DNA from: Blastobasis lacticolella
Taxonomy: Eukaryota; Arthropoda; Insecta; Lepidoptera; Blastobasidae
Direction: 5' to 3'
Length of the DNA: 64,000 bases
Assembly: GCA_905147135.1 (NCBI GenBank)
Contig: LR990055.1
Coordinates: 1,364,001 to 1,428,000 of the forward strand
Part shown: positions 917 to 42,949 of the stretch, piece after piece
Numbering within the stretch: the stretch's first letter is position 1
Layout: every line of letters begins with the position of its first letter
The notes under the pieces: generated by a model
What the model saw: only the letters and a program-made list of their open reading frames with translations
What the model was told of the DNA's origin: nothing
Databases searched by the model: none
Made by a program: the position numbers and the translations under genes

Positions 917-3900
917 GTGAGTGAATTTCTACTTTTGGTTATAGGCCTAAGGTTGATTTTTAAAGGCACTTGCTATTGTCAGCGCAAATACTGTTACTTC
1001 TAAAAGCTGATTAGGGAAGGTTCTCAAGGAGGTAGAGTGTTGTCCCGTGAAGGTATACATAAGATACGAGGAAACACATAATTATATATCTATTATACGT
1101 GGTACTTGGATAAAGAGAGCGCCTAACCACAGAGCTCGCTCTATGTAATTGCAACATAAAACACAGAACTAGCTCCCCTTTTGACAGGTCACCTATGTTT
1201 CTAGTCGAGTTCCTATAAGGGTTGAATTTCGGTTCCCTTAAAGCCTCTCCCAAACAGGTGCGACAATGCGTTCCTTTTTGCGATATCTATTAAATTTTTT
1301 GCCATATCTAACAAACCCCCCCTCCTCCCCCCCAGATCAACAACCGTTCGCTGGAGGGCGTGAAGAGCGTCTCCGAGGCGATGGCGTGCCTCAACGACTG
1401 CCAGTACGACGCCGCCACGCTCACCGTGCTGCGGCCGCTGTTCCCCTGCTGCGACCATCGGGACAGGTGGGTGTTTTTTCTACTACTCAGGGATATATAT
1501 TGGTCGAATAAATGATGACCTTTTCCATAGGGGGTAGGAGTGGTACCACCTATCTCCGATAGTATGCCGCCATTTTGAGTTCAAACTAACCGCAGCAAGT
1601 CAGCTCTGGTTCTGGCTTGCTGCGATGGTCCTAGCTCAATCCAAAATGGCGGCGTACTATCGGAGATCGGAGGTATGGCTGCAGGTCAGGAGTACCCTCA
1701 ACCGGCGTAAATGTAAGAGACGATGTATTTTTTATTTATAATACCTGCATATTGTTGTAAAGAAAAGCCGAGAAGAAATAAATTAATCATCATCACAGCC
1801 CACAACAGTCCACTGCAGGACCTTAGGGCCTCTCCTACGAAAGGGGAGGTTGTTGCCATGATCTCCACGCTTGGCAGGCGCGTTGGAGATAGCAGTTATG
1901 TGAATTTAACAATGGAAACGCTGCTGTCCATTTTTCAGCCGACGGAGATCGATTATTTGCCTCGAAAATATTAGTCGTCTTGTACGACACCCACGAGTGT
2001 AAGGGGTTGGTGTTATTCTACTCTGCTGGACATCACGCGGCCAACCGCATGCATGTGCTCGTGATAACGAATGCGAAATAAAGAAATTGAAATTGAAACA
2101 ACCAACAACTTTTATTATCTAGCACTCATAACACAAGCTTTGCTTACTTTGGGGCTAGATGGCGCTGTGTGAATTTGTCCACGATTATTTATTTATTTAT
2201 TTTTATTTATTATGGCACCAACTCTGAAATCGAAAATAATGAATCAACTATTTCATACATTTCGCATTTCACACGGCAGGTTTCGTTTTTAATGTTGTAT
2301 GAAACAGCTGGTGCCATAGTCAAAGTTGTTTGTTTTCACGAGCACAACGGTACCCTGCATACGTCTTTGCCTTTTCGCGTCGTTTGACCCCACAGCAATG
2401 TAAACACAAAACACTACAGACGCACCATTACTTGTTGACATTTTTGCGAATTACGCAACGTACAGCACAATGTAAGATGGGATAACGGATTTTGTAAACA
2501 CTTATCTCGAGTGCTCAATTCCGCTGCCTTATATCACAAGTCGTCCGAAGGTGTGACCGTTGAAGTGTTCTAGATGAATTGTTCATTAGACATTATCAGT
2601 GTTGGACATAATAGAATTTGAGATATTTGCACTTGAGATTTTTTGGAGGTCGATATCTTGATACAGATTTTATTGTTCTTTTTCTTGTGTTTTCTTTTGC
2701 GATAAGTTCAGTACGTGAACAGTTTCTGTAAAGCAATGGCGGGTATACAAAACAGGCATAGACGGACCGATGTATTAATAATGTTAGTGAGTGATAATGA
2801 TAGTGTACATAAAGAGACCGATGGTCCATCAAAATCATTCGCAATTCAGTTAAAAATTTGTCGTTATAAGATCAGCTGTTTTGATGCATGATGCTAATTT
2901 TCGATATTTTACAAACCGTACTCTTTCGGTGTTGCCAATGTGATTTAAATGTATAAAATTTTTCATGCTGAAAATCAAAATTCAAAACCGATCGAATCGA
3001 AGCGAGCGATTCAAAAATCGGGCCCCCGGTTGTGATCACGCGTATGAGGGCTCAGGGTCTGCCTTGACCAATTAGACCAAATAATTTTACTCATTCATAT
3101 ATTCATTCCATATCTGGCCGTGACCGGCAGACTAGAATAGCACCAACCCCTTACACTCGTAAGTGTCGTATAGGGCAACAAATGTTTTCGAGGCGAAAGA
3201 TCTCTAGAGTCTCCGTAGGCTGGAAATTGGGCAGCAGCGTTTTCCATCGTTATATTTACAAAACTGCGATCTCCAACCCGCCTGCCAAGCGTGGAGATGA
3301 TGACAATAACCTCCCCTTTCGTGGGAGAGGCCCTAAGTCCTGCAGTGGACTGTTACGGGCTGTGATGATGATGATGATTCCATGAATCCCCACAGCACGC
3401 GTTGCGCGGACTGCGAGTCGCGGTTGCGTCGCGGCCACAGCGGCTCGGGCTCCGGCTCGAGTTCGCGGCCGCGCGACTCCGCCGAGCCCGCCGACCACGA
3501 CGATGACCCGTGAGTACTTCATAGACTGTCTTCCTCGTCGAGTCAATTTTTCGAAAACCCTAGATCTGGCATGCTATAGTTGGCCGCGGCAACGGCATTA
3601 TCAGTCGCCAGGAACAATTCCTCCCTAGTGCAGGTAGCAGGACAAAGAGGACAAGAAAGCAGATGCTCCATGGTTTGGGATGGAGCTCCACAGTCGCATC
3701 GTTGCTGTGTCTGGTCGATGAAGCCCCACTTAGCCAGAGAGTCTTTGCAGCGGCCAACCTGCGTCCGTAAACGGTTAAGTGACTTCCAATTGTTAAGTGA
3801 CTTCATAGACTGTGATGGTGATGGAGGTTATCCTACATCATCTTCTGGAAAAGAAATCCACTTTGTAGCAACAGTAGACGCTGGAGACCAACAAAACGTT

Positions 3901-6900
3901 GGTCTGCCCGTGCACAACCAGGCACAAAAAATGATTTTAGTGACCGAAACTTCGACTTTTCTTAGCGATTGTACTTACAAATCAGCTTGGCAGTTTCGCT
4001 TTTCAGCCATAGTAAAGTTACTGTTGTTTTTGGTGACTATAAAGTGGTTTGTCTACCAATTAACATAAAAAAGAAATTGATCTTTGTTGTCCGATAAACG
4101 AAAAGAAATCTGCGATCGGCCGCTTTCCATCAGGAGAGTTGTCCGTCTATGTGCCACTCTATTCTATAAAATATTCCTTTTTGATCATATTAATTACAAT
4201 TGCCACGTTTGTCTCCCCGTAGGTCGCCGCAATTCGACAGGGAATGCTTCCAGGTCCCGTTCAACCACAAGGTGCTGCCGCGCGGACAGTACTACTCGCC
4301 GGCGCCGCCCCCAATCGAGGTGAGTGTGAGATGAGATGATGAGATGAGTGAGCAATAAATTGTTAAATAAACTCTGAAATCGCGAAAAAATAATCGTTTT
4401 AAATTGAAAACAAGTACTGTCAAACACTTGTTTGTTTTTCGCGATTTCAGAGTTGTTGCAATAGTTAAAGTTGTATGTTACCACGAGCATATGCGTATTC
4501 CGTGGTATCAAGAATTAATTTAAAGTCACACTGTGAACTCAGTTGCCGCTATATTGCGGAATTTTAAGGACGAAGTGTCAGATATGCTTACGCCGGCAAC
4601 AGCAAGTAACAGCAACATTAACTTACACTAGATACATGTATTCCTTATCAGGCTTTACTAAAGAGGCCGCAATATGAAGCGATATGCTAGATTGAGCTAT
4701 GTTACTGTGCTGCCATAAAGTTGCATATCGTGTACTTGTAAATGCGACTTACTACTTTGCTGTTGCCTATTTCATCATTTTGTGAATAACAGAGAATATA
4801 ATACGAGTTTCACAGCCTTACACCCGGTTTCTGAAACGCTTGTCAAATCATTGATTAGCTAACAGACTGTCACATTTAACAAGCTGTTAAATCACCGTGG
4901 GTTTCTGAAAGGCCAATCAATCTATTGTTAGCTAATCGACCATTAACAAGAGATCAATTTTTTCGTCTGGCTACCCCTGCTAAAATCAGTCACATTCATT
5001 CACTCATATATGTTTTGTTTCTGTCTAACGCATTGATTTGTCTCTGTCCCTAGCGGCCTTTTGATAGCGGCGGGATATTCAACTTTTAGATGAAACTGAT
5101 AGCGATTGTATAGTTTTCGTGTAAAAACGAATATTACGAAAAAAAAAAAATACAGAACGAGAAAAGAGAAATTATAACAATATTTATGTAATGTAAGATC
5201 AGTAATCCCATCATCATCATCTTTAGGCAGTTAGGTGGGTCCCGGTCCACTGCTGAATACAGGCCTCCCACGGCTTACACTCTGGTCGACTCTGTTATCT
5301 TGCATCCATCGGCTCCCTAGGACCTTAAAGAGGTCGTCCGTCCATCCAGAGATAGCCACTTAACAACAAACGCCCCATCGGCTATCGATTCTGTGAGTTT
5401 CTTCCAATAATCCCATTAGTTAAATCCTGGTTCAAGTCCTGGACACGGGCCGGTTCATGGTTCAGGTCTAGGTCCTGGCCCCGGATCAGGTCCTGGTTCA
5501 GGTCCAGGTCCTGGCTTCGGACCAGTTCGTGGTTCAGGTCCAGGTCCTGGCTTAGGACCAGGCCCTGGCCCCGCACCAGGTCCTGGATCAGGTTCAGGCC
5601 CTGGCCCCGGACCAGCTACTAGTTCAGGTCCAGGTCCTGGACCCTGACATGTCCGTGGTTCAGGTCCTGGTCCTGGTTCAGGTCAGAGTCCTGGCCCCGA
5701 ACCAGGTCCTGGTCCAGCTAATGTTTATGGTATTAGTGCTGGCACTGGTCTAGGTCCTGGTTCTGGTTAAAGCTCAAATTGTGATCAAGGTTGCAGTTTT
5801 GGTCATGATCCTGGACCAGAACCTGGACCCTAGACCTGGACTTTGCCTTGGGACCAAAACTAGGACCTGGACCAGGGCCAAGACCAAGACCTAGACCAAG
5901 AAAATCGGATATAATTTCTTTTGACAATCGTTTAATTGGTCGATTTTCGCCAATTAAAATAACAAGGCGATAACATACAGTTAACATGAAAAAAAGCTTT
6001 CCGGAAACCCAAAATTACATTAATCAGCCGTTAATTGGAGATTTGAAAATCCGTTGACAAGCTATAACAAACAGTCAGTTGGCCCTTTCAGAAACCCAAA
6101 CTGCATTTAATCAGTGTTTAACAAGCTGTTACGTAATTTTTGCGTTGACAAGCGTTTCAGAAACCGGGTGTTAGTGTCACACTTTAGTCTAAACTTAATT
6201 ATATTTTATACTTGAATCTAGAATAAGTTTGATCTAAGCAAACCGCTTACCATCAGCTGGGCTGTCTATTCGTTTGTCACTGCGTAGCAAAAATAAAATA
6301 GGTGGAATGTCGACAAATGGTTTTATGTAACTGATTTTGTTTTTATTTGTATAATTTCCTATTTCAGAAGTCCAACCATCCCGCTAACATGCATCCTGGT
6401 TACAAAGTGCAAAAACACGAGTACATCGATTTCTTAACGAACGCCGGCGGGGTTTGTGATTTTTTTGTTTTATTTTTTTCTTTATATTTATTTTAATATG
6501 ATGTCCATGAAATGTAGACCGCGTAATAGTTCCATTTCTTGTAAATATTTTATATTTTTTTATTGTATGTTTTTATTATTTTGGGCTTGATATTTTAAAA
6601 ATATTCTGGGTTTAAACTATCGCGGTTATTTTCACACATTTTAAAGGTATATTCCAGGTTACGCGGTAGGAAACCCGGCACATACCTTTTAAATGTGTTC
6701 TGGGGTTTTTTCACGTAGCGACTTCTGTGATATTATCATCATCATCATTATCAGTATACTTATCTATTTTTAGGGTTCTGTCCACGGAGGGTGAAAACTA
6801 GTCTGAGTGCGAATAGAATGAATATACCGCTCTGCTAAATATTTACACGAATTTTACCTAATTAGAAAAAAAAATGAATGTCTCGTCCATTTGTCCAGAA

Positions 6901-15900: not shown

Positions 15901-18900
15901 ACCTCCACATCTTCGCTTGCTAATGTTAGAGGCTACCATATCCTAGTCCGCTAAAAGTATTCTATAATATCGGATTAGATATGTTGTTGATAGGGTTGCT
16001 TCTGTTACGGCTTCGCCATCGTGTCTTAACTTATAACATCGGATATTTAATGACCTAATACGTTAGCAGTGCCATCTATATCTCGCACAAACCACAAACA
16101 GCCAAGTCCATCCATCCACAAACCACCACACCTCACGTCCACGCATCACGCCCTCCCTTGCACCCTCCCGAGCATCTACAGTGAACATGAAGTGATGAAT
16201 GCAGGGTGGACGAGATCCTGCGAAGGTCCATGGGGTCCTTAGACAGCGAGGCCCAGAGGAGGGCAGTTACCACTGCCAGGCGGTCCTTCTTCAGACGCAA
16301 GAAGCACCGTGATAGCAAGGAGTTGGCCTCCTTCTCGAATACAGAGCTGGGGTGTTGGAGCGACTCAGGGACGCTGTCGGATGATGCCCCGATAGTGTCC
16401 TACCTGAGGGTAGAACGGTTGCATTGTGAGTATTGTATTGGTTGTTTATTCATACTTTGAATGGATAAGTGAATAAAGGAATTAAATATATTTATTTACA
16501 CATGCCCATAGAACAACACAACAAAATAATTGTTAAAGCATTTTGATGGAACTCTATGACAGGATCTATAGCAGCGACCACGCAGGGTTGATAATAAATA
16601 ATTAATAAATAAATACATTAAAATAAATCGTGGACAAATTCATACAGCGCCATCTAGCCCCAAACTAAGCAAAGCTTGTATTACTGGTTTTAGCTAACTG
16701 ATACGAGTATATGTTTTTTAAAATACATACTTGTTATACATAAAACACCCAGACCCGTAACAGAAATTAAAATTCATCATTTTTAATTTCTGCCCAGCCG
16801 GGTATCGAACCCGGGACTTCTTGCGTGGCTGACTGGCATGTTGTCCACTGAACCAGTCGGGTCGTCGTGACATTTAATTTGTATTCTAAAACTGTTTGAA
16901 TGAGGGTGTTTGTGATTCCAAAATACGAGATGACGCTGCTGAGGCGTAAGTCCTGCTGTGTGTAAAATGGAGTTATGTCATTTGCTAGAACGAATCTATC
17001 AGTTTACATCTGTCATGTCTATCCAATAGCACGACAACATTTTGACAGCAGACCTTACTATAGTTCATTCGCGATAAGAAAATAGCGAGTCATCGTTGTC
17101 CGCCGGGCCTAGCCTTGCCTCTCGACCAGCAACAAATTAGAAAGATAAGTTTACAGTAACCAGTTGACGGTTACTGTGAACTTATGTACGTAAAAGTGAA
17201 CATTTACGTAAAAATGAATACCTCGCCGGTTATATACTAGACTGGCTGCTAAGCAAAGGGATATCCTTGACTTTGTTTTTAACTTGAGCCAATTAAGTTG
17301 ATATTTATCCATTAATCAACTTCACTGCGAAAACACCATTAGTCACCATTTCCTTAACGCGAACGAACTATAGCCCTCATCATCGTTCTAAACTCACTTC
17401 ACTCCCGGTAACTCCGACCGCACTAACCTCCCCGTCCTCCCGACAGACGGTACCCACCGTCCCGTGGTGGTGATCGGCCCCCTCTGGGAGTGCGTGGTGG
17501 CGCGGCTGACCGCCGAATGGCCGCACGTGTTCGGGCGGGTTCGCGCCGAGCCTGTGGCCGTGGCGGGGGCGGCGCGGGCTTTACAAAAGGGGACCCATCT
17601 GGAGCCAAGGCCGAGAAGGGATTCGACCCATTTGGACTGGATACCGTTGCAGGCGATACGGGATATGGCGGATAAGGTAAGGGCTTTATTAACAGCTTCC
17701 CTGCCTACCCCACCTGTGGGACAGAGGCGTGAGCCTTGAGTATGTATGTAACTTTCGACGAAAAAGAGGGGTTATAAGTTTGTGTATTTGTGTATCTGTC
17801 TGGGGCATCGTAGCTTCTGAACGTATGGACCGATTTCAATGCTGTTTCTTTATTTGAGAGCCAGTTTAAACGAGATGATTCATAGCTTTGTTTCATTACA
17901 ATCGGGTCAGTAGTTAAGGAAATATTTTTGTAGGCATACAATTACGTTAGATTGAGACTAATGGTCGTCTTCAACGGTCATAAATTCGTTGCCGGACGTC
18001 GGAGTCATGCTACACAGCTTAGACTACGACAACCGCGCGTCGGCCAACGGCATTCGACGCTTACCTCTCCCCTCGCCGTAAATCAGCGGCAAGTGTTTAG
18101 AACAAAAACGTGCCTAATCGTTCAGCACTAGTTAAATGAGGGTACCGTTTTCGTGCTCACCAGTGGGCGCTACTGTCCAGTAAGACTGTCTTGTCGTCGT
18201 TCTATTGGCTTAAATAACTGTCAACTTTGAGTGTATGATTCTGGCCAATAACGCTACGTATTTTGACAACGGACCTTACTCGCCACTGTTGCTATCTGGC
18301 GGAATTTCAAAATCGCGATAGCCCTCATTGCTCCATAGTCATGATAAGCGTCCTACTATTGACATCACAGGCCTCATAATTCTGGCGTGAGTGAGACCTA
18401 AACCACAGCACCCTCTTCAATACCTCTTCATTTCCAGGGCATCCACTGCATACTAGACATCAGCGTGACTTCGATAGAGAAACTGCACAAACAGCTGATC
18501 TACCCGATCGTGCTGTTTATCAAATTCAAGTCCTTCAAGCAGATTAAGGAGGTGAAGGACACGCGGTACCCAGCGGACAAGGTGTCCGCCAAAGCCGCCA
18601 AGGAGATGTACGAACATGGACTGAAAATTGAGAACGAATATAGGAGTTACATATCGGGTAAGTATTTTTTTCAAAGGCTGAAATTATGACGATGATGTTG
18701 TTTTTCAATACTACTCAGTGACAAACGAGCAGACATCCCACTTGGTGCGCGGTAACTGTCGCCATTATCATCTACGAGTCATGCATTTAGGTTTCATAGA
18801 ACAAAATGCAGAACTATATAGTTGGAGATGAAATTAAAGATAAAAAATGTAAACACACAACTGTCAATGTCATAGAGACTATCCAGGGGTATAAAACCTT

Positions 18901-20132
18901 TGGTTTGCATAACCAAATGGCTATGCATCATGCTCACTTTTCAGTGTGCTTTACAATGGCTGGTAATCTTTCGAAAACGAAACAAATCGATTTACCCCCA
19001 TTTATGGAATTAATTTAAAGAAACTATTAGTCCAAGAACACTAGTTACAAAAGTCCAATATTAGAAAGAAGTGGCCGCCATTTTGAATCTTATATTATTT
19101 TATGTATTATTATTTGAGAAATTAGTTAAATATGTCTCGGCGTCGGTCAATCCCTTACTTTCCAAGCCTTTGAAATAATGTACTGTAACAACGAACCAAA
19201 GGTTTAGATTTTCTTACCATTACCAGCGTCATAAATGAAATCTACTCATATTTTATTGAAACAGCACAAATATGTAACAAAAAAAACATAGTTCCCTATT
19301 TAATTCAGTAAAATATTTTAAAATATTCATATGATTTTATTTCATTTTGAATTTAATAATTTTAATCAATATTTCAATGATTTTAAATAATCCACCACTT
19401 GGGTTTTTTTTTATAGTACCAACCCATTTGTTTACATTTTTGATCTTTAATTCGATCTCATACTATAGGTGCGTTGTCACTGCGAGGACTAAGATGAACT
19501 AAGAGGAACACAATAGTGGCAATATTGTTGCTTGGCAGCAGAAATAGATAGGCGTTGTTATTCACCTAGGTGGACACCAATTACGAAATGGTGAGCAGTT
19601 ACCGTACCTTTTGGACGCTTACAATACTAAACCCAACCCCTACAGGAAGCTCTTTCCCAATCTTAGTGTGCGTGACACAAGTTTCTCTCGGACCGCATAG
19701 TGTGCGACCAATTTGGTTCTAGTTTTCCTGCTCTTTCTTCTCGACTTTGTTCGGCTGTTAACTGTAAGCTCAGAACAAATAATAAATAGAAATGGCTGTC
19801 AATAGTGATGGCCGGTTTCGTAAACAAATGTGCCACGACGTAGCTTAGTTAGAAATAGTCCTAAGCCTAGTTTGGTTATTAATGTGTGCAATTTGTACTA
19901 TACCGTGTACGTACACACAGTATGGCGTAGTTTTGCGTGCGTCAGTATGTTGTTCGCAAGATTCTGTTTTTATTTCCTATTTGGTCTGAGGCTGTCATAT
20001 ATCAACACAACTCCCTCCCCCACAGCGGAGATCCCGGCCGGCGTGAACATCGCGTATATGTGCACGCAAGTGAAGGAGGCCGTCGAGGACGAGCAGAACA
20101 AGACCCTGTGGGTGCCCGCCGTGCAGGCCTGA
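837..20132 (+). CDS. dlg5: Discs large 5 (DLG5) MAGUK scaffold, C-terminal 1226 residues in 14 exons (5' part outside window)
   Basis: Joining 837-916, 1336-1466, 3396-3509, 4223-4319, 6368-6451, 6899-6995, 7961-8034, 10604-10667, 10924-12809, 13245-13519, 16205-16425, 17447-17676, 18438-18657 and 20026-20132 gives one uninterrupted frame of 1226 residues ending in TGA. The domain order is partial PDZ (residues 1-64), low-complexity linker, PDZ (660-741), PDZ (803-884), SH3 (about 896-968), basic hook (about 980-1000) and guanylate-kinase-like domain (about 1043-1192). This order, the ARRSFFRRK hook, the SH3 phrase VLYVDNTL and the C-terminal EQNKTLW are what I know of DLG5. DLG5 acts as a cortical scaffold at cell junctions, binding partners through its PDZ domains; its kinase-like domain is a pseudo-enzyme. 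Every junction is GT-AG with consistent phase. Introns hold many repeats. The frame stays open beyond the stop (see 20133-20945). Confidence 0.93.
917..1335 (+). other. intron with nothing recognised
   Basis: AT-rich sequence ending in a strong C-rich polypyrimidine tract (about 1314-1333) before the acceptor. No repeat or gene was recognised in it. Confidence 0.6.
1336..1466 (+). CDS. dlg5: dlg5 visible exon 2: PDZ, second half
   Basis: The exon starts after CCCCCAG and ends before GTGGGT, leaving two bases of an Arg/Ser codon. It encodes INNRSLEGVKSVSEAM and then TLTVLRPLF, the second helix and last strand of the PDZ begun in the previous exon, followed by a short Cys-containing tail. Confidence 0.9.
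1544..1675. mobile_element. Short hairpin MITE
   Basis: The two halves of this 132-bp stretch are inverted copies. The left half reads TACCACCTATCTCCGATAGT and continues with GCCGCCATTTTG; the right half carries CAAAATGGCGGCGTACTATC and ends GGAGATCGGAGGTA. The middle (GCAAG...CTTGC) also pairs. Non-coding, in a dlg5 intron. Confidence 0.6.
1786..2050 (-). repeat. Interspersed repeat C, inverted copy
   Basis: The copy starts with the inverted tail ATCATCATCACAGCCC, runs through CAGTCCACTGCAGGACC and the phrase GATCTCCACGCTTGGCAGG, and ends near GTAGAATA-type sequence about 260 bp on. The same unit recurs at 3120, 29022, 38352, 53937 and 57737. The tail of ATG/GAT triplets in the forward copies suggests a 3' end of the RTE-LINE type or a SINE mobilised by one. 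Open frames across it are by-products. Confidence 0.7.
2110..2215 (+). repeat. SINE B, 3' fragment
   Basis: Contains the phrases ACACAAGCTTTGCTTACTTT and GGGGCTAGATGGCGCTGTGT and ends in TTTATTTATTTA repeats. It matches the 3' half of the SINE B copies at 16583 and 54393. The tRNA-like head is missing. Confidence 0.65.
2216..3119 (+). other. intron stretch without recognised features
   Basis: AT-rich intronic DNA. Reading frames here are short and have no coding character. A short piece near 3025-3075 (TTGTGATCACGCGTATGAGG, then GGTCTGCCTTGACCA) resembles the end of SINE A but is too short to assign firmly. Confidence 0.5.
3120..3382 (+). repeat. Interspersed repeat C, forward copy
   Basis: Runs from the GACCGGCAGACTAGAATAGC head through GGGCAGCAGCGTTTTCC and CCTGCCAAGCGTGGAGATGA to the tail GGGCTGTGATGATGATGATG. 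It lies immediately upstream of the acceptor of the exon at 3396, so the tail forms much of the region just before that splice site. Confidence 0.75.
3396..3509 (+). CDS. dlg5: dlg5 visible exon 3: Ser/Gly linker
   Basis: The acceptor is CCCCACAG and the donor GTGAGT. It completes a Ser codon and encodes STRCADCESRLRRGHSG, a short Ser/Gly run and an acidic end (HDDDP). It leaves two bases of a Pro codon. CADC and the CC upstream are possible metal ligands, but no known finger is recognised. Confidence 0.88.
3543..3806 (-). pseudogene. LINE ORF2 C-terminal remnant, antisense in dlg5 intron
   Basis: Read on the minus strand this encodes 87 codons with LNRLRTQVGRCKDSLAKWGF, then RCDCGAPSQTMEHLLSCPLC. 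The pattern of a basic NRLRT segment, KWG, CxCG and TMEHLLxCPLC is typical of the Cys-rich tail that ends the reverse transcriptase ORF of jockey-like and related LINEs. No reverse transcriptase core is nearby, so it is a 3' fragment, inserted opposite to dlg5. Confidence 0.6.
4223..4319 (+). CDS. dlg5: dlg5 visible exon 4: linker
   Basis: The acceptor is CTCCCCGTAG and the donor GTGAGT. It encodes SPQFDRECFQVPFNHKVL, then RGQYYSPAPPPIE, a Pro/Tyr-rich linker between PDZ domains. It ends in phase 0. Confidence 0.85.
4821..6170. mobile_element. PIF/Harbinger-like MITE carrying a minisatellite
   Basis: The left end CACCCGGTTTCTGAAACGCT is matched exactly, inverted, by the right end AGCGTTTCAGAAACCGGGTG, and pairing continues into TGTCAA/TTGACA. 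TTA flanks both ends (4818-4820 and 6171-6173), the duplication of PIF/Harbinger elements. A second pair of inverted segments lies inside: GGGTTTCTGAAAGGCC near 4909 against GGCCCTTTCAGAAACCC near 6080. No transposase is encoded. The centre holds a GGTCCTGG-type minisatellite (5410-5900) and a scrap of another repeat (5208-5340). It lies wholly in one dlg5 intron. Confidence 0.7.
5410..5900. repeat. GGTCCAGGTCCTGG minisatellite
   Basis: About 80 degenerate repeats of a six-base unit (GGTCCT, GGTCCA, GGTTCA) with a looser 18-24 base period. From about 5815 the strand sense flips to ACCAGGACC-type units, so the array is partly inverted. Long apparent frames on the minus strand here (Asp/Leu/Gln-rich) come from the repeat and are not genes. 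Confidence 0.85.
6240..6300 (+). repeat. LINE 3' tail (family E) scrap
   Basis: Contains ACCGCTTACCATCAGCTGGG and TCGTTTGTCACTGCGTAGCA followed by A-rich sequence, matching the copies at 27880 and 59115. It lies just upstream of the acceptor for the exon at 6368. Confidence 0.5.
6368..6451 (+). CDS. dlg5: dlg5 visible exon 5: linker
   Basis: The acceptor is CCTATTTCAG. The donor GTTTGT is weak, but the phase match to the next exon supports it. It encodes 28 codons including NMHPGYKVQKHEYIDFLTNA. Confidence 0.82.
6899..6995 (+). CDS. dlg5: dlg5 visible exon 6: linker
   Basis: The acceptor is TTTGTCCAG and the donor GTGAGA. It encodes KLPIEPPLMSPFDNRYVYHL, then AASSQGKIHQER, and leaves one base of a Gly codon. 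Confidence 0.87.
7066..7172 (-). repeat. LINE 3' end (family D), inverted fragment
   Basis: Starts TATACCACTAAGGTGGCAAA, continues GCCTGCCTGATGGTAAGCAG and TATGGACGTTTGCAATACCA. This is the reverse complement of the last hundred bases of the longer copy at 61665-61902. Confidence 0.65.
7173..7960 (+). other. intron stretch without recognised features
   Basis: AT-rich intronic DNA. The reading frame that leads into the next exon (from about 7798) is only an open intron extension; the acceptor at 7959-7960 defines the exon. Confidence 0.5.
7961..8034 (+). CDS. dlg5: dlg5 visible exon 7: basic linker
   Basis: The acceptor is CTTCGCTCGCAG and the donor GTCAGT. It completes a Gly codon and encodes TWDMIRGKIEAVTGRSKSKD, then KQNK, a strongly basic stretch. 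It ends in phase 0. Confidence 0.87.
8035..9202 (+). other. intron stretch without recognised features
   Basis: AT-rich intron. I see no repeat or exon that I can support. Short frames near 8682 and 8914 lack coding character. Confidence 0.5.
9203..9545 (-). repeat. SINE A, inverted, near full length
   Basis: Read on the minus strand it has a tRNA-like head (GGTGCCCTAGTGGTTGAGGT, B-box-like GTGTTCGAATCC), then ACATAACTC-type and CATCGTGATGAAGCC body phrases, and ends in ACATTAACGC-like sequence. It is one of about fifteen copies in the window and lies antisense in a dlg5 intron. Confidence 0.8.
9955..10045 (-). repeat. Short interspersed repeat fragment
   Basis: CATCCTCACGTCGTAAGCCG followed by TTGGCT is shared with 48686-48735. 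Both copies give the antisense peptide PTAYDVRM. It is a repeat fragment of unknown class. Confidence 0.5.
10604..10667 (+). CDS. dlg5: dlg5 visible exon 8
   Basis: The acceptor is AACCCCGCAG and the donor GTGAGT. It encodes VPESDAIAELDSVIDSYHGK and T, an acidic helix-like segment, and leaves one base of an Ile codon. Confidence 0.87.
10924..12809 (+). CDS. dlg5: dlg5 visible exon 9: long linker, PDZ, most of next PDZ
   Basis: A very large exon of 1886 bases, from acceptor TTATTTTCCAG to donor GTGCGT. Residues 249-658 are a Ser/Pro-rich, probably disordered linker with recurring SLDF/SLDY/SLDH motifs (SPHSLDF, SSLDFVT, PSSLDHS) and Tyr-rich pieces. Residues 660-741 form a PDZ with the binding loop PLGI and GVFVSTVYDNSLASKVGLQV, then GDQLLEVCGI. 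A Ser/Gly/Asp-rich spacer follows. Residues 803 onward start the last PDZ with the loop LGIS, GIFVHSVGKDSPAHKAGL and GDQILEF, completed in the next exon. It is much more GC-rich than the flanking introns. Confidence 0.95.
12810..13244 (+). other. intron with nothing recognised
   Basis: AT-rich intron ending in ACCCCCACTCTGCAG. The frame open from the previous exon simply runs on to a stop at 12879-12881. Confidence 0.6.
13245..13519 (+). CDS. dlg5: dlg5 visible exon 10: end of PDZ and SH3
   Basis: The acceptor is CACTCTGCAG and the donor GTGAGT. It encodes the last PDZ strand (ISVLVRHD), then an SH3 from GDAFYIQAGFDRSAK through FRKDEVLYVDNTLANGVPG and LWRAWKL to IPSKF. The SH3 has an insert (SIGMDVIDEYSLW) where I recall a shorter loop in vertebrate DLG5. 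It leaves two bases of a Lys codon. Confidence 0.94.
13520..16204 (+). other. long intron, mostly unassigned
   Basis: About 2.7 kb, AT-rich. On the minus strand, 14850-15194 is open and gives a Cys-rich peptide with GECLLCGRESRS and VYRLCREHNKL. This resembles the C-terminal tails of LINE ORFs, but I cannot place it in a family. A small inverted repeat (CTATCTCACTCG near 14571, CGAGTGAGATGG near 14598) surrounds a short loop. Confidence 0.45.
16205..16425 (+). CDS. dlg5: dlg5 visible exon 11: SH3-GK hook
   Basis: The acceptor is GATGAATGCAG and the donor GTGAGT. It encodes VDEILRRSMGSLDSEAQRR, then TTARRSFFRRKKHRDSKELA and a Ser/Asp-rich piece ending SYLRVERLH. The ARRSFFRRK block matches the basic hook I remember between SH3 and kinase-like domains of DLG5. 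Confidence 0.93.
16583..16868 (-). repeat. SINE B, inverted, near full length
   Basis: Read on the minus strand it opens with a tRNA-like head: A-box-like TGGTTCAGTGGACAACATG and B-box-like GGGTTCGATACCCGG. It continues CTGTTACGGGTCTGGGTGTT, then AGCTTTGCTTAGTTTGGGGC and TAGATGGCGCTGTATGAATT, and ends in TTTATT repeats. It is the best reference copy of this family in the window. The head is not a functional tRNA: the acceptor stem does not pair. Confidence 0.75.
16869..17446 (+). other. intron stretch without recognised features
   Basis: Mixed-composition intron. The part near 17000-17110 (CCAATAGCACGACAACATTT, GACCTTACTATAG, CGCGATA) resembles 18200-18330, so an unnamed dispersed repeat may be present in both introns. 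Confidence 0.45.
17447..17676 (+). CDS. dlg5: dlg5 visible exon 12: guanylate-kinase-like domain, first part
   Basis: The acceptor is CCTCCCGACAG and the donor GTAAGG. It encodes YGTHRPVVVIGPLWECVVAR and on to LDWIPLQAIRDMADK. The position of the P-loop reads GPLWECV instead of GxxGxGKS/T, so nucleotide binding is not expected. This fits DLG5, where the domain is a protein-binding pseudo-kinase. Confidence 0.93.
17745..17935 (+). repeat. Dispersed repeat F
   Basis: The phrases TCTGTCTGGGGCATCGTAGC, GACCGATTTCAATG and GATTCATAGCTTTGTTTCAT recur, diverged, at 56045-56235. Non-coding; class unknown. Confidence 0.55.
18438..18657 (+). CDS. dlg5: dlg5 visible exon 13: guanylate-kinase-like domain, second part
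   Basis: The acceptor is CTTCATTTCCAG and the donor GTAAGT. It encodes GIHCILDISVTSIEKLHKQL, then IYPIVLFIKFKSFKQIKEV and a helical end to EYRSYIS. The phrases HCILDI and IYPIVLFI are the conserved core strands of the DLG5 domain as I recall them. It leaves one base of an Ala codon. Confidence 0.94.
18658..20025 (+). other. intron with repeat scraps
   Basis: An inverted fragment of LINE tail E lies at about 18715-18820 (CAGTGACAAACGAGCAGACA). The rest is AT-rich with no supported gene. Open frames running into the next exon from 19830 and 19937 are intron extensions. Confidence 0.5.
20026..20132 (+). CDS. dlg5: dlg5 last exon up to the conserved stop
   Basis: The acceptor is CCTCCCCCACAG. 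It encodes AEIPAGVNIAYMCTQVKEAV, then EDEQNKTLWVPAVQA and TGA (20130-20132). The EQNK-x-LW-x-PA ending agrees with the C-terminus I know for DLG5, so this stop is the ancestral one. The base after the stop is C, the leakiest context for UGA. Confidence 0.93.
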
Positions 20133-20945
20133 CCCCTGCCGCCGCCGCCGCGCCCGCGCCCCCGCCCCCCCCCACACAAGGCCGTGACGTTCTGCAGCTG
20201 CGACCGGGACCCCGCCTCCCCACGAGAGCGCCGAGACGCCCGATACTACTCCGACCCCGGACGAGACCCCCCTCGCAACAAACCGACAAGAACCCATCCC
20301 GACCCCGACCTCCAATACTACTCCGAACCGGACGCGAGAAACTACTTCGAAATCGACTACGAGTTCCTGAAGGAGCTGCGCAAGATTGCGCGCAATAATT
20401 GCCCGAAATGTCGCCGGAGACGATCGAGGAGAGGCGATAAGGAACGATCGAGAAAAACCGACTCGCGGGAGAAGTCGAGGAGGACGCGGCAGAGCGATGA
20501 GAGCTATGTCTTCTGCAACGGAAGGTACCACAGCGAGAAGGAGCACTGCCAGTTGTGTTGCAAGGTCTGCAATCGTTCCACCGACACTTTGGACTCGATC
20601 GACGACGAGTACTCTCTAGTGTCGAGGAGTTACAGCTCCAGTCGGGCCACGGTCAGCTCCAGGTCCAAAGATAGGGGCCAGGAGAAAAAAGCTCGCGAAA
20701 GGAAGAATTCAATACAGTCAAATAAGTCCGTTTCCTTCCTCGAGTCCAGTTGCGACGAATCTAAAGATGAGCCAAACTATACGGCTAAGAGCTTCACGAA
20801 CGATTTGAAGAGGTTCCTGCTTCGACCCGCTACGCCCAGACTCAGTTTCCGCGACAAATTCATGATAAGCTTCAAGCAGGAGATCGAGGCGACCAAGAGA
20901 TCGCCCAAACTAAAAGCCATCAAGGGACTTTGGAAGTCCTATTGA
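20133..20945 (+). CDS. In-frame 270-codon extension of dlg5 beyond UGA: candidate readthrough tail
   Basis: The frame of dlg5 continues without a stop from the codon after UGA to TGA at 20943-20945. The sequence is PLPPPPRPRPRPPPHKAV, then FCSCDRD, two YYSDP/YYSEP repeats, a helical EFLKELRKIARNN, CPKC plus a basic run (extension residues 90-93), Arg/Ser-rich sequence, a Cys/His cluster (C128, H133, H138, C139, C142, C143, C146), a Ser-rich segment and a basic C-terminal region ending LKAIKGLWKSY. Codons favour C/G at the third position, as in the exons, unlike the AT-rich flank. The only ATG in frame is at 20862, so independent initiation would give 27 residues. I found no phase-compatible splice site that would bypass the stop. 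I do not recognise the peptide. It is either a readthrough tail or part of an undetected isoform; chance openness is unlikely. Confidence 0.6.
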   Translation, partial: PLPPPPRPRPRPPPHKAVTFCSCDRDPASPRERRDARYYSDPGRDPPRNKPTRTHPDPDLQYYSEPDARNYFEIDYEFLKELRKIARNNCPKCRRRRSRRGDKERSRKTDSREKSRRTRQSDESYVFCNGRYHSEKEHCQLCCKVCNRSTDTLDSIDDEYSLVSRSYSSSRATVSSRSKDRGQEKKARERKNSIQSNKSVSFLESSCDESKDEPNYTAKSFTNDLKRFLLRPATPRLSFRDKFMISFKQEIEATKRSPKLKAIKGLWKSY

Positions 20946-21548
20946 CTTAAGATACTCGTTGCGGATGTCTTGTGTGTTTCCGTTTGGTAAATATGCGTAG
21001 AAATCGACGGTATGGTAAGTTTATTTGAAGGATTTCGTGTACTTTTCGCCCTCTATGGGTGAAGATAACACAAATGTTTTAATTTAGGTGACATTATTGT
21101 GATCGCTGATGGGTATTGTCGTCTAAGATATACCTCCTTAATGATTTCTAATTCTGGTGCTGCGTTCTTGGACTGAATTATGTGCGTATTTCTTCATTTT
21201 ATTTCGTAAAGCTTTACTAGTCACTCCGATCAACGACAATATTAGATACTTCGAAAAAAATACTACGATAAAAAAACGAGTCATTTGCAGAAATTGTTAC
21301 CTTATGTAGAATTAAATAAGGTTAAAAATGAATTGAAATTAAACTCTGCTGTCATTGATTTGTTAAGTAGATTGGATTCAACGGCAGGAGACGTATAGTT
21401 ACGTAAGTATTGTCTGATATTGTAGTTGATCAGAGTACAGTCAACGTAAGTGTTCAAAAATGGTCTAAAACGTGTAATTGAAGTCAAAGTTTCGGTGCTA
21501 ATTTTCAGCTGGCAATCGGCTGCTGCGTGTACCTAATTTATTAATAAA
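20946..21548 (+). other. Probable dlg5 3' UTR
   Basis: AT-rich sequence after the extended frame. The first AATAAA downstream is at 21543-21548, a plausible polyadenylation signal. No other feature is seen. Confidence 0.4.
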
Positions 21549-21855
21549 TATCGAGACCTCTTTGAAATAATATTGTAAATGATCAGCTGTCTACTTCATC
21601 GCATGATGAGGTATTCTGTTCTCTTTGTGACGGCAATGTTTTATAAGTAAGTGGAGCTTAGACTCGTCTAAACATGCAATAACATTTTATTAGACCGTCT
21701 TTAGGAACCTATGGACCGCCGTCTGTGGTATTTTCAAAGTTGTATAATGGAGGAAAGTAAATGAAATTCGTACATGGAATACATAGGGCCACTTTAAGCA
21801 ATTTGACTTTACATAATCATAGTATTTGTACAAAGTACTTGTAGCTAGTAGGGTA

Positions 21856-22320
21856 ACGTAATGCCAATCTTAAAACGATGTTGTTTGCCTAGTTTGAAAA
21901 TTACTAATAGGTAAAATACACAATGAAGTTAACTTTCCTGGTAGTTGTAGACCAATATTCCACTATTTACTACGTAATGCCAACCCTAAAACAATGTTGT
22001 TCACCTAATTAGAAAATTATTAATAGGTAAAATATACAGTGGAGTTTACTTTCTCGGTAGTTTAGACCAATATTCCACTATTTACTACGTAATGCCAACC
22101 CCCAAAACAATGTTGTTTACATAATTAGAAAATTACAAATAGGTAAAATATACAGTGGAGTTCACTTTATAGGACACTAATGTTCCACTATTTACTACGT
22201 AATGCCAACCTCAAAACAATGTTGCTTACCTACTTAGAAAATTAATAATGAGTAAAATATACTGTGAAGCTCACTATCCTCTGGTAGTTGTAGACCAATT
22301 AAATATTCCACTATTTACTA
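21856..22320. repeat. Tandem repeat, four units of 110-124 bp
   Basis: Units start with ACGTAATGCCAA at 21856, 21972, 22087 and 22197. Each carries AAACRATGTTG, TTAGAAAATTA, GGTAAAATAYAC and ends TTCCACTATTTACT. Units differ by point changes and small indels; the third has lost about ten bases near GGTAGTT and the fourth has gained a few. Non-coding. Confidence 0.85.
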
Positions 22321-23100
22321 TTGTGGAGCTTACCAATTATATTAATCAAAATTAAGTACATTATCATAATAGTGGTATAGATTATCTTAAGTCGATAACA
22401 TTACGATTCCAATAAAATAAAAAAGTTAGCTTTTCTCATATAAAACCTACACAAATAGTTAAAAATATAGGTAGCACACACCCCCTTAATAGTGACTCGT
22501 GATTGGTCAATTTCCTTAGATACTACATACTACATGTACTAGTTGAGTACCCCAGTTATAAACTAGATGGAACTAGGTGTGGGCCATTAAAATACATGTT
22601 TGCGAACGGAACAACGTTGTCTTGTCAAGGTATACGCGTGTATGATGCTTCAGTATTACACCGGTTGAACTAGTTCAACTTGTTTTAGTAGTTATTTGGC
22701 TTGGCCAAACTCTTACCGTCGTTCACATAACTTAGTACCGCCTCTTATACTTCGATTTATGGTAAATGACTAATCTGTGTCGAGTAATAAACTCTTTCTT
22801 TCTGAGAATAACTCATCGTAACTGACAGTTTAATTGACAGTTTACTAACGCAAATTATAAATCGCAGTATAGAACACACTATAATTGCTTCCGAGTACAA
22901 TCAGAGTTATGATTGTATTTAAAATAGTTATGATAGTGATAGGAAGAATGAAAAAACTTAGTGCCAACGTTTAGCGAATACAAGTCTAATACCTGTGTAA
23001 TACTATATTGTAGATTATTGCGTTCCCATTGAGGTACCACATTCGAATTTTGAGATTTTGAATACGTCAGCCTATAGTAAAAGTTGTCAAACATACTGTA
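22321..23100. other. AT-rich intergenic DNA, nothing recognised
   Basis: No coding frame, repeat family or clear inverted repeat was found on either strand. Confidence 0.5.
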
Positions 23101-23104
23101 CAGT

Positions 23105-23335
23105 CAGCATACATTGATGACAAAGGTGACACGGTACTGTAAGGTGACCATACTTGTTATTGCTACTGATTGTACTGTGAACAGGATTACCTGTTCACAG
23201 TTAGTACAGAGTTAGGACTTGTTAGAAGGTATTATTATTAAATAATACCTTCTAACAAGTCCTAACTCTATAACAAGGATGTCAGAAATGTACGCATCCG
23301 TGTCATCAAAATAACGAATATAATTTCAGTTTTTG
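23105..23335. repeat. Hairpin-rich element with a perfect 29-bp stem
   Basis: 23208-23236 and 23241-23269 are perfect inverted copies (29 bases each, starting AGAGTTAGGACTTG) around the four-base loop ATTA. A smaller stem, CTGTGAACAGG/CCTGTTCACAG, lies just left (about 23175-23200). The outer parts (GATGACAAAGGTGACACGG and CCGTGTCATCAAAAT) also pair loosely, so the whole may be a MITE. Confidence 0.6.
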
Positions 23336-23482
23336 CAGCTCCATAAAAGTGGTTTATGACTGATATATGCGTTACTTTTACTCATTATATTCTGCTTGAT
23401 AGTATCTAACGAAATTCGTGTCTATAGATTTAGTTGGAAATGAATAGTCTGATGAGTCTTAGCAAATATATTGTCTAAACTA

Positions 23483-23508
23483 AATAACTACAGAATTCTG
23501 TAGTTATT
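23483..23508. repeat. Perfect 26-bp palindrome
   Basis: AATAACTACAGAATTCTGTA followed by GTTATT is its own reverse complement, centred on an EcoRI-type GAATTC. No surrounding element is evident. Confidence 0.8.
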
Positions 23509-23810
23509 GAGAGAGTACCACTAACATATTTTTTCATGTTTGGTTTCTTTGGACACATGCGGAGTAAAACTCGCATAAAAAGGTTTATTGTGTGGGAATG
23601 ACGTGTTTTTTTTTCCAATAATGTTGCTGTAAAACGTTATGAAAGTCATCTTTAAGTAGAGGCGTAATTTCTTGTCGGTTTCCGTCTATACTTTCGACAT
23701 GTTTACTTTCGCAAAGTAATGATTTACAATTAACTCATTCTGTCTAATGAGTTGTGATATGGTGGGGGACGATTTTCGTTTTAATATATAACTTATTCGA
23801 AATAACAACC

Positions 23811-23964
23811 GTTGTCGAGATATAATTTGCTTCATTTGACAGCTGTCATTGTGTCCACGACAAAGTTAGGTCGCGCGTTTACGCGTAATGTAAAATGAAC
23901 TTTATGTCGTGGGCACAAGGAAATAATGACAGATGTCAAATGGGGCCTATTATATCTCGACAAC
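23811..23964. mobile_element. Hairpin MITE, 154 bp
   Basis: The left arm GTTGTCGAGATATAAT, CATTTGACAGCTGTCAT and GTCCACGACAAAGTT is answered on the right by AACTTTATGTCGTGGGCAC, AATGACAGATGTCAAATG and ATTATATCTCGACAAC. There is no coding capacity. Confidence 0.65.
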
Positions 23965-26800
23965 TGTAGTTTATCGGTGAAGAGTATGAAGTTAAGCTAG
24001 AGAGAAATAATATTAGTAGCCCGGTTAAGATCAGTTTTTAGTGCGAACATAGATATCTTGCGATATTATATTATAAGCTTATCAATTTTTTGTGTTCAAA
24101 TGTTATAATGACAGAACATCAGAATGCAGTAAATAAGCGATCTCATTGATAAATTGATATTGAACACGTGATGAGGCTTTTTGAAATGACCTTTTTATTT
24201 TTTCAAGCACAGTTTATTTATAGTTTTTAATTTTTAAGTATTTTGTACAGACTTGAGTTTACGTTATGTTTTACGCTGCCTTTATCACTGGCTTGGTTAG
24301 GTTAACGCTTTTTACGTGGATTACGTCTAATTACTTTAGTGGGTATAGTTTGAGATTCCGGTCCGACATGTCGGGATCTTTTTCTGTTTCAGAGACGATA
24401 TCTTATAACAAACAAACAAACCTATAAAACACAATGATTATTGCACTGGTATAAAAAAGCTTAGTTGCATTTGAGTCAGTGTTTCATGACAAACTCATAA
24501 TATGACATGAAACATGTCCAGTAATTGCAACTTTCGCCTTAGTTACTATCATAATAATTGAATAGTAAACATTTCTCTGCGTCGAGTGCTATTTTCATTG
24601 TATTTGGAATGCGCATTTTTGTTAAATTTCTCTGGATATTGTCTTGAAATATTAATGTATTTTTTTACTGGGTCACTTGCGTTAATGATTCTGTACAAAT
24701 AATGGTCTATAAGCGACGCCCTCTATCTACACAACGAGTATGAAATGCTTTTATAAATGATCATTAAATGACTCCCTAGTTAGAAAGATATACATCATTC
24801 ATTATTCTCAACCCGTGTCCCGACACGCAATTTATAATTTGACCTTTCACCGCTGAAAAATAAAATGTCCTAAATCCCGGGTTCTAATTTATGACCTTGA
24901 TAGAAACGGGGATTGCGTATGGAAATATTTTATGATTACTTTTTTATACAATCTGCTAGTAGATATTACGTTTTATTTGCTACATCGATCCGTTTTAATC
25001 TGGTACGGGAATAAGTTATATGTGAATCCTGCACTTGAATGTATGTTAGCCTTTAGTGGCTACTGGAATATAAATTTAGTTACTGATTCCGGTGGGCATT
25101 TATCTATTTCGATTGTTGTTGGTAGATATAGATTTGCAATATTTTCAAACGTGGTGGGTAGCTGTCGTAGGCACAGTATAGAAATACTCAGTCAGCTATT
25201 TCGGTCGAAAGCATGATGACTGAATTATTTTATTGTTTAATTTTACAGCGTTTGACTTAACGAGTAGAAAAATAATATTAAATTTTAAATATATTTAAAA
25301 ATAAACTATTGTAACTCCTAATTAAAGTGGGCGATATCAAACCGTGACCTCACGGAAGGAGACAAACAATATCTTTTAAGATCTTATAAGGACTATGTTT
25401 TTAACCGATTTTCGTATTCGATTCAGTTAGTAAGAGCATGGCCCACTACGTTTTCTCCATATTGCGTCGTAAGACAGTACATCTGTTCTTTCGTCTTAAA
25501 GTTGTAGGAACATACCTTTAAAATGTGAGCTACTTATTATTAGTTAATGACAGCCGTGAGTGATCCAGCGCCGAGGCATACAAATTGAGAGAGTGAATAG
25601 ATAGTTACCATTTTAATTTAACAAGCGCCTGCACAAACAATCAGTTCAACGTTAATTATACAAATCCCGAGATTAGTTTAGTTTGAGTTAATTTGATCTG
25701 ATATTAGTGTTAAGTTCAACTAATTATGAAGGTTGCTAATATTGTTTGTTTACTTATTATTTTTATTATTATGATTAATATACAATTATTGTAGTTATGT
25801 AATAATGTAATATAAAAATTATATATAATTAATTATTATGTATTTAGAGTCGTTATTTGAAAATTGACAATAATCAGTATTTAAATTATTGAAACTTTTA
25901 CAAGTTTACTTGTCTTTCTTGTTTTATTATTACTTTTTGGAAATATATTTGTCTGTTGATGTTTGACTACTCTTGTATTGTATCGGTATTATTTTTCTAT
26001 GTGGAATTGTTAACAGTAGTTGTACTCTATGGAATATTGTAGTTTCGGCCAAGTAGGTTCGCAATAACTTTCGAAGTACGTTCAACGAATTGTTTATACT
26101 ACTTATAGAATGAAGCAATAATAAATCAATATAAAATGAAATGATATAGATATTAACCAGTGTTTTATTTGTCTCGTCATATTCGTACTTCGTTTTTGAT
26201 GTGAGGTATCTTTATTAATTAAGCGATTATTTGCACAGTTACTTAAAAAACATTGCCTACTTATTCACATATGTTTTAGGCGCAAAAACTGTATTTTTTT
26301 TGGCTTGGAGTAAAGCTAAGCAAAAAAGAAACAACACGAGTCCGGTATAATAAAAGGTAAATACCTCACATCAGACAACGGTTGCATATGCAATGTGTAA
26401 TTGCGTTGATTGGGCCCATAACTGCCCAAACGACGATTATGAGTGACAATGTTATTGGCCATTTGATACCCGCTTTGTTTATATGACACCTACTCTACAT
26501 TTGCCTGAGGATTTATGAAGCAAAGTAGGTTGGTATTACCTTGTTACGGTGATAAAAGTTTCATTTCCCCATGCGGATAATGAAGCACCTGATAGGCATG
26601 TAATAGGCTTCGTGATTAAAGCGGCACGCATCCTGCACCGTACGCGAGAAGCCAAACTAATTAGAGAAAGTCACTCTATGCCACCTGACATTCCACAAAA
26701 GTAAGACTGGACGAGCGAAATAAGAGCAAACTCGAGCACGTCGGTAAAATCGCTTGCCTTTTAAAATAACTCAATTTGTTTTTTATTTTATTTTCTGCGG
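23965..26800. other. AT-rich intergenic DNA, nothing recognised
   Basis: About 2.8 kb with very few family repeats. The frame at 24932-25216 has an ATG and 94 codons but AT-driven composition, and I do not support it as a gene. The stretch 25730-25900 is extremely AT-rich. Confidence 0.45.
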
Positions 26801-42745: not shown

Positions 42746-42949
42746 AAAGGCCTTGCCACATACAAAGCTCGGCGCGAGCGCGGCGTGAGCGCGGTGCGAT
42801 ATTTGCTAGGCAACCATCGCGCGGCGCGATAGTTGCTAGGCAACCATCGCGCGGCGCGTTATTTGCTAGGCAACCATCGCGCCGTGCGATGGTTGCCTAG
42901 CAAATAACGCGCCGCGCTCGCGCCGAGCTTTGTATGTGGCAAGGCCTTT
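42746..42949. mobile_element. GC-rich palindromic MITE with internal 30-bp repeats
   Basis: The ends AAAGGCCTTGCCACATACAA and TTGTATGTGGCAAGGCCTTT are exact inverted copies that continue through AGCTCGGCGCGAGCGCGGCG. The interior holds three direct copies and one inverted copy of a unit built on TTGCTAGGCAACCATCGCGC. It is very CpG-rich in AT-rich DNA. No coding capacity. Confidence 0.75.

Follow-up and report, generated by a model that had tools for sequence, protein, structure and literature searches.

In the lepidopteran Blastobasis lacticolella, the last coding exon of dlg5 ends at a UGA followed by C, and the reading frame stays open beyond this stop for 270 codons. Judged by its likeness to related proteins, this tail is real coding sequence, an in-frame second ORF under protein-coding constraint, and stop-codon readthrough of the dlg5 UGA-C is its probable explanation. 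According to this model, most DLG5 would be made with the C-terminus ...LWVPAVQA, and some ribosomes would decode the UGA-C (20130–20132) with a near-cognate tRNA and continue through 270 codons as far as the second UGA, which would give a DLG5 with a mostly disordered tail. What the sequences show is a conserved protein tail that begins directly behind the stop in the dlg5 frame; the decoding of the UGA, the amino acid inserted, and the decoding frequency are inferred. All positions refer to the window, i.e., the whole 64,000-nt stretch of contig LR990055.1 that was analyzed.

The penultimate dlg5 exon (18438–18657, + strand; start inferred from CAG/GGC) encodes part of a guanylate-kinase-like domain (Pfam, E = 4.6e−07), a match that fits the identity of the gene as dlg5. 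The last coding exon (20026–20132, +), with the C-terminus ...NKTLWVPAVQA, joins in phase to the donor of the penultimate exon (GTAAGT at 18658). Each of these two exons has one matching place in the 577-Mb assembly of 45 contigs, and the tail likewise matches a single place. The first-pass annotation had described a 270-codon frame directly after the UGA, and we recovered it as a stop-to-stop ORF of 270 aa (20133–20945, +), made up of the tail coding sequence (20133–20942, +) and a second UGA, again followed by C, after ...IKGLWKSY (20943–20945, +). The related claims also held. The tail frame is that of dlg5, being continuous with a last exon that is itself in phase with the preceding one; the context of the candidate readthrough stop (20130–20132, +) is UGA-C, with TGA CCC in the sequence; there is no early ATG in the tail, the first in-frame Met being residue 244; and an open frame of this kind is improbable by chance, the probability of 270 open codons being about 8e−5 with the tail's own base composition. 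The decisive evidence for a coding tail is homology, which ranks above this chance calculation. No AATAAA or ATTAAA was found between the two stops; downstream of the second stop, ATTAAA occurs at 21311 and 21338, and the first AATAAA 3' of the tail lies at 21543–21548 (+).

Several repeats were observed in the window. A 116-bp unit occurs in 3.9 tandem copies (21856–22299; 82% match) about 0.9 kb 3' of the second stop, in the dlg5 3' UTR or close to it. Upstream of the large dlg5 exon, overlapping 18-, 36-, and 90-bp tandem arrays (5429–5717; 65–77% match) contain open frames of Gly-Pro or Arg-Ser repeats, and a GC-rich 30/60-bp tandem array (GCGCGGCGCGATA...; 84–90% match) is located at 42789–42917. 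A reverse-strand ORF at 3543–3827 (−), containing ...CDCGAPSQTMEHLLSCPLC..., is presumably similar to the ends of reverse transcriptase ORFs in LINEs.

The earlier claim that the tail has exon-like codon choice found weak support. With a codon-usage model trained on 974 dlg5 codons and an intron background, the tail frame scored 0.62 bits/codon, as against 0.03 and 0.12 for the other forward frames and 0.37 for a reverse frame. On a composition-matched background, the tail frame (0.07) again exceeded both remaining forward frames (−0.54, −0.46), but the same reverse frame was higher (0.17). Codon usage is weak support at best for a coding tail. One reverse frame across the tail is also positive for dlg5-like codon usage, and open frames of 216 and 206 codons lie antisense to the dlg5 end and the tail (20002–20652, −); these antisense frames are probably a by-product of composition.

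A search with the tail returned 33 protein relatives among 1604 candidates (E ≤ 1; best E = 1.3e−103), namely 22 Logan proteins, 10 proteins from named Lepidoptera, and 1 from a caddisfly (Arctopsyche, E = 4e−24). Among 23 aligned sequences, the tail of the window shared 65–74% identity with 21 others and 40% with the caddisfly tail, and the invariant blocks included YYSEPD, YFEIDY, HC..CC..C, SVSFL, NYT, SFTNDLK, and GLWKS. Thus, with respect to two objections foreseen in the first-pass annotation, the tail is conserved at the protein level (65–74% identity to the 21 aligned tails), and no frame-breaking indels were found at that level among the sequences showing the stretch that links the stop to the tail proper. 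Eight of the 11 named models carry the label "uncharacterized protein, partial", and their first residues are like those that follow the stop in the tail: PLP in four, LPP in three, and PPPP in one; the caddisfly model begins with its own Met. A search for lepidopteran DNA in viral contigs gave 41 pattern matches and no relatives. Seven further DLG5 matches were without the tail, three from named non-Lepidoptera (Bactrocera, Halocaridina, and Timema) and four carrying no organism label. Six of these end no more than five residues from LWVP (QWVT in P0050), like the window protein at its UGA, so that the canonical DLG5 end looks ancestral; the Timema model diverges.

Eight of the 22 Logan proteins ran unbroken from the last DLG5 exon into the tail (...NKTLWVPSVQA-W-PLPP...-VTFC..., with the variants QSKTLW in P0028 and SAQA in P0010), and all eight had W at the second stop also. 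The simplest reading of W at both places is a gene caller using a code in which TGA means Trp, so that both stops would be TGA in these relatives. Their stop context is read from protein sequences, the UGA from W in the eight proteins and the C from the Pro that follows. Beyond the second stop, nothing common could be seen by eye in seven of the eight proteins, which have at least 6 residues each there, and the eighth has 2. Likeness thus extends over the first stop and is lost at the second, as expected of a translated extension. In P0002, P0006, and P0009, unrelated residues stand ahead of AEIPAG, which would be typical of genomic and not of spliced sequence. A control search of Logan for spliced or unspliced DLG5 transcripts yielded none that were recognizable among 18 matches (5112 candidates) and so favors neither readthrough nor splicing.

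The linker, that is, the 16 codons PLPPPPRPRPRPPPHK between the UGA and a putative acceptor (20133–20180, +), bears most directly on how the tail is reached. In the window it contains no AG before its last codon (none before 20179), so no AG acceptor can place the linker in an mRNA from which the UGA is absent; as far as the window sequence goes, translation through the UGA is the only ordinary route to linker codons 20133–20177. This argument resembles the logic set out by Jungreis et al. 2016 (PMC5100048), who ascribe a coding second ORF to splicing if the sequence separating the stop from a predicted splice site has a non-coding score. We compared 20 visible linkers (19 of the 33 relatives plus the window); a frame break could be hidden in the other 14 relatives and in 15 database models that fuse the tail to DLG5, none of which shows the linker in full. 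Counted to the residue before VTF, with one residue added where the sequence began with L or M, the linker was 9 to 25 residues long, in frame in all 20 sequences, and its PLPP-like start was kept. On the tree, its length changed at least 10 times over the 20 sequences. Among the nine sequences not picked for frame (eight partial models and the window), at least five changes occurred, all multiples of three, with a chance of about 0.004 if each indel were free; these tree-based figures are approximate, as only 5 of the 17 inner branches were well supported. This test of nine was kept apart from the eight Logan proteins, which had been found because they were in frame, and from P0005, P0019, and P0021, whose linkers open with a Met supplied by the gene caller. 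Next to the putative acceptor, two residues before VTF, Lys was present in 19 of 20 sequences and Arg in one (P0011). These data lend moderate support to the proposition that constraint begins right after the stop, ahead of any 3' splice site or ATG; the support is moderate because the linker is short and rich in C and because its sequences were in part selected for frame. Within the 150 nt at 20136–20285, RNA structure did not exceed chance (z = −0.38), which weighs against readthrough.

The tail could also be reached if an in-frame 69-nt mini-intron (exitron; 20112–20180, +; TGG/GTGCCC ... CACACAAG/GCC) were sometimes removed, so that VPAVQA, the stop, and the linker would be deleted and ...NKTLW joined to AVTFC..., the retained form ending at the UGA. 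We consider this unlikely. It draws on database models in which the tail is fused to DLG5: a tail-only search with candidates of whole-DLG5 length gave 13 matches among 2265 candidates, all from named Lepidoptera and all fused, and a third protein search (18 matches among 5112 candidates) contributed two more, P0047 and P0048. In 6 of these 15 models (P0035, P0037, P0039, P0041, P0042, and P0047, from Manduca, Amyelois, Cydia strobilella, Danaus chrysippus, Epargyreus, and Heliothis virescens), NKTLW is joined to [SA]VTFC, as removal of the mini-intron would have it. The stretch has GT and AG at its ends, is in phase 0, and is divisible by three in length; the C-rich linker could serve as a polypyrimidine tract, and the Lys before [SAC]VTF in 19 of 20 sequences is compatible with an AAG acceptor. 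However, the donor TGG/GTGCCC agrees with the consensus (CAGGTAAGT) at 3 of 9 positions, compared with 8 of 9 for the true donor of the guanylate-kinase exon, and 86.6% of the GT sites in the window match the consensus at least as well. The acceptor would be AAG at best and never CAG. In P0011, moreover, the acceptor position holds Arg, no codon of which ends in AG, and the junction of TLW to [SA]VTFC is therefore impossible there; this protein retains the motif as R-H-V-T-F despite the Arg, and it could be spliced by a shifted acceptor with another donor. The frame and start of the linker are also kept across relatives, although removal of the mini-intron would mean that the linker is never translated.

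The fused models themselves disagree, and 9 of the 15 use other junctions. P0038, P0040, P0044, and P0045 leave the last exon after its LW or TL and are joined to different sites, the last exon is missing from four models (P0043 and, all from Choristoneura, P0034, P0036, and P0048), and the junction of P0046 lies further upstream. Conflicts occur within species (P0014 versus P0038 in Spodoptera frugiperda; P0015 versus P0040 in Pararge aegeria) and between congeners (P0007 versus P0037 in two Cydia species). The varied junctions look like the work of gene finders each escaping an in-frame stop. Like exitrons, the 69-nt stretch is bounded by GT and AG, in frame, and inside a coding exon, with a junction as in the six models; it differs from them in lacking usable, conserved splice sites, the donor being very weak (3/9) and the P0011 junction impossible, and in that the stretch looks translated. 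Among the matches listed from one open library, titles and abstract starts on insect exitrons contained nothing on the dlg5 tail. In the window, 8 donors and 13 acceptors combine into 42 further in-frame GT-AG pairs with a length of 40 nt or more. An alternative intron at 20108–20197, with the better-looking acceptor TTCTGCAG, was rejected: VTFC would have to be followed by a Ser codon for this AG to exist, and Thr, Ala, or Asn stands there in 13 of the 20 sequences with a visible linker. Skipping of the last exon from the 18658 donor was likewise rejected; it is in frame at the AGs at 20226, 20235, and 20265, but the end of the guanylate-kinase region would be lost.

A start of its own would make the tail a separate gene or cistron, reached through an upstream exon spliced in, internal initiation, or a non-AUG start. 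Separate partial loci are indeed annotated in eight named Lepidoptera, and the caddisfly tail model starts with Met; however, the eight loci are partial and without a start, the tail frame is tied to the dlg5 stop, and no AG acceptor can lead into the window linker. Furthermore, 10 of 20 tails, the window counted, lack Met altogether from the linker to the SFTNDLK block, the stretch in which a start would have to lie, and the other 10 have Met at varying places, a few of them common to two or three sequences, indicating that an AUG start belonging to the tail is not conserved. A separate start is very unlikely, in line with the earlier view that the missing ATG excludes independent translation unless a spliced leader exon exists. 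Readthrough as the interpretation of the tail, also proposed at first pass, draws support from the conservation at the protein level, the start right after the stop, and the retention of the dlg5 frame.

Recoding of the stop by other means, namely A-to-I editing of UGA to UGG or insertion of selenocysteine, is the least probable of the readings considered. Editing would yield an identical fusion protein and is consistent with the conservation data; however, the A of the UGA follows a G, a poor context for ADAR. As for selenocysteine, neither of the two marks of a selenoprotein, a SECIS element and tRNA-Sec, was found. At E ≤ 5, none of the 12 Rfam matches in 19900–24000 was a SECIS element; they lay near 23164–23277 and 23845–23922, all below gathering scores. 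In the assembly, no tRNA-Sec exceeded the Rfam cut-off; there were 27 weaker matches (best 46.5 versus 47 bits), and the three examined were all tRNA-Ser. The loss of selenoproteins in the silkworm (PMC2500217) also counts against selenocysteine at the dlg5 stop. Separately, a hairpin-like stretch at 23199–23277, which several microRNA families match weakly and below threshold on either strand, is probably an inverted repeat.

The readthrough model thus places dlg5 beside genes already described. Conserved readthrough genes of flies and mosquitoes were reported by Jungreis et al. 2016 (PMC5100048), and the criteria given there include a long in-frame second ORF that is conserved, a C next to the stop, indels that preserve the frame, and likeness lost past the second stop. 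By these criteria, the dlg5 tail resembles the dipteran cases in its long, conserved in-frame ORF, the C that follows the UGA in the window, its in-frame indels, and the loss of likeness past the second stop; it differs in belonging to another order, Lepidoptera rather than Diptera. The main texts of PMC5100048 and PMC3840789, as distinct from their supplementary candidate lists, contain no occurrence of dlg5. Among the matches listed from one open library, titles and abstract starts on readthrough in Lepidoptera, in the silkworm, in dlg5/CG6509, and on abundant readthrough did not report readthrough of dlg5.

The tail itself is predicted to be mostly disordered: the AlphaFold model had a mean pLDDT of 57.5 and a pTM of 0.20, and values of about 78–83 were reached only in residue blocks 81–90 (a helix), 121–140 (a Cys/His element), and 241–250 (a helix). 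The Cys/His-rich element with the invariant HC..CC..C spans 20505–20585 (+), with a pLDDT of 78–83 in 121–140 and 59 in 141–150. No Pfam family matched the tail at E ≤ 1, and a PDB search gave one match (E = 0.19).

Docking to protein phosphatase 1 (PP1) can follow a shorter core in which H is allowed, [HKR][ACHKMNQRSTV]V[CHKNQRST][FW], and the tail contains two RVxF-like motifs, KAVTF (20178–20192, +) and KSVSF (20724–20738, +), the latter in the caddisfly too. A first motif of the K[SAC]VTF kind, with the RVxF core, was present in all 20 sequences with a visible linker, and 48 of the 49 sequences that bear the tail, some of them from one species, had the second (the exception was P0044). Shuffling of the window tail produced two or more RVxF-core motifs in 3 of 20,000 trials, a post hoc figure, the motif having been sought after the sequence was seen. 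The PP1 docking pattern described in PMC4794898, from which the consensus family was taken, has two leading K/R residues; the window motifs (HKAVTF and NKSVSF) are without the first basic residue and do not match this extended consensus. Thus, the two conserved KxV[ST]F motifs are like those of PP1-interacting RVxF proteins in the core and unlike the pattern in PMC4794898 in missing the extra leading basic residue. The same source puts the random occurrence of a looser pattern, [RK]x(0-1)[VI]{P}[FW], at about 25% of proteins. We hypothesize that the two motifs could dock PP1 on the DLG5 scaffold, and go no further because the extended consensus is not matched and such motifs are common by chance. 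Splicing of the mini-intron would delete the Lys of the first motif, so that the first docking motif would exist only in the readthrough form. A doubtful but conceivable extension is an old lepidopteran switch, in which basal DLG5 would be a plain polarity scaffold, readthrough would append a PP1-docking tail with two KxV[ST]F motifs, the first of them readthrough-only, and the readthrough rate would set the phosphatase dosage. Literature on DLG5 together with protein phosphatase 1 contained nothing on the tail in the titles and abstract starts of the matches listed from one open library.

Taken together, the dlg5 tail is a strong comparative candidate for stop-codon readthrough and would join the known readthrough genes. 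If this is true, a signaling scaffold outside Diptera would carry a readthrough extension that is both long (270 aa) and conserved, and that annotation has hidden, either by cutting the tail off as an orphan partial locus or by placing introns around the stop. dlg5 would then be a clean test case for lepidopteran readthrough, as deep RNA-seq and proteomes exist for the silkworm and pest moths. The case also suggests that start-less "uncharacterized protein, partial" loci lying just 3' of a UGA-C may quite generally mark readthrough that has been missed.
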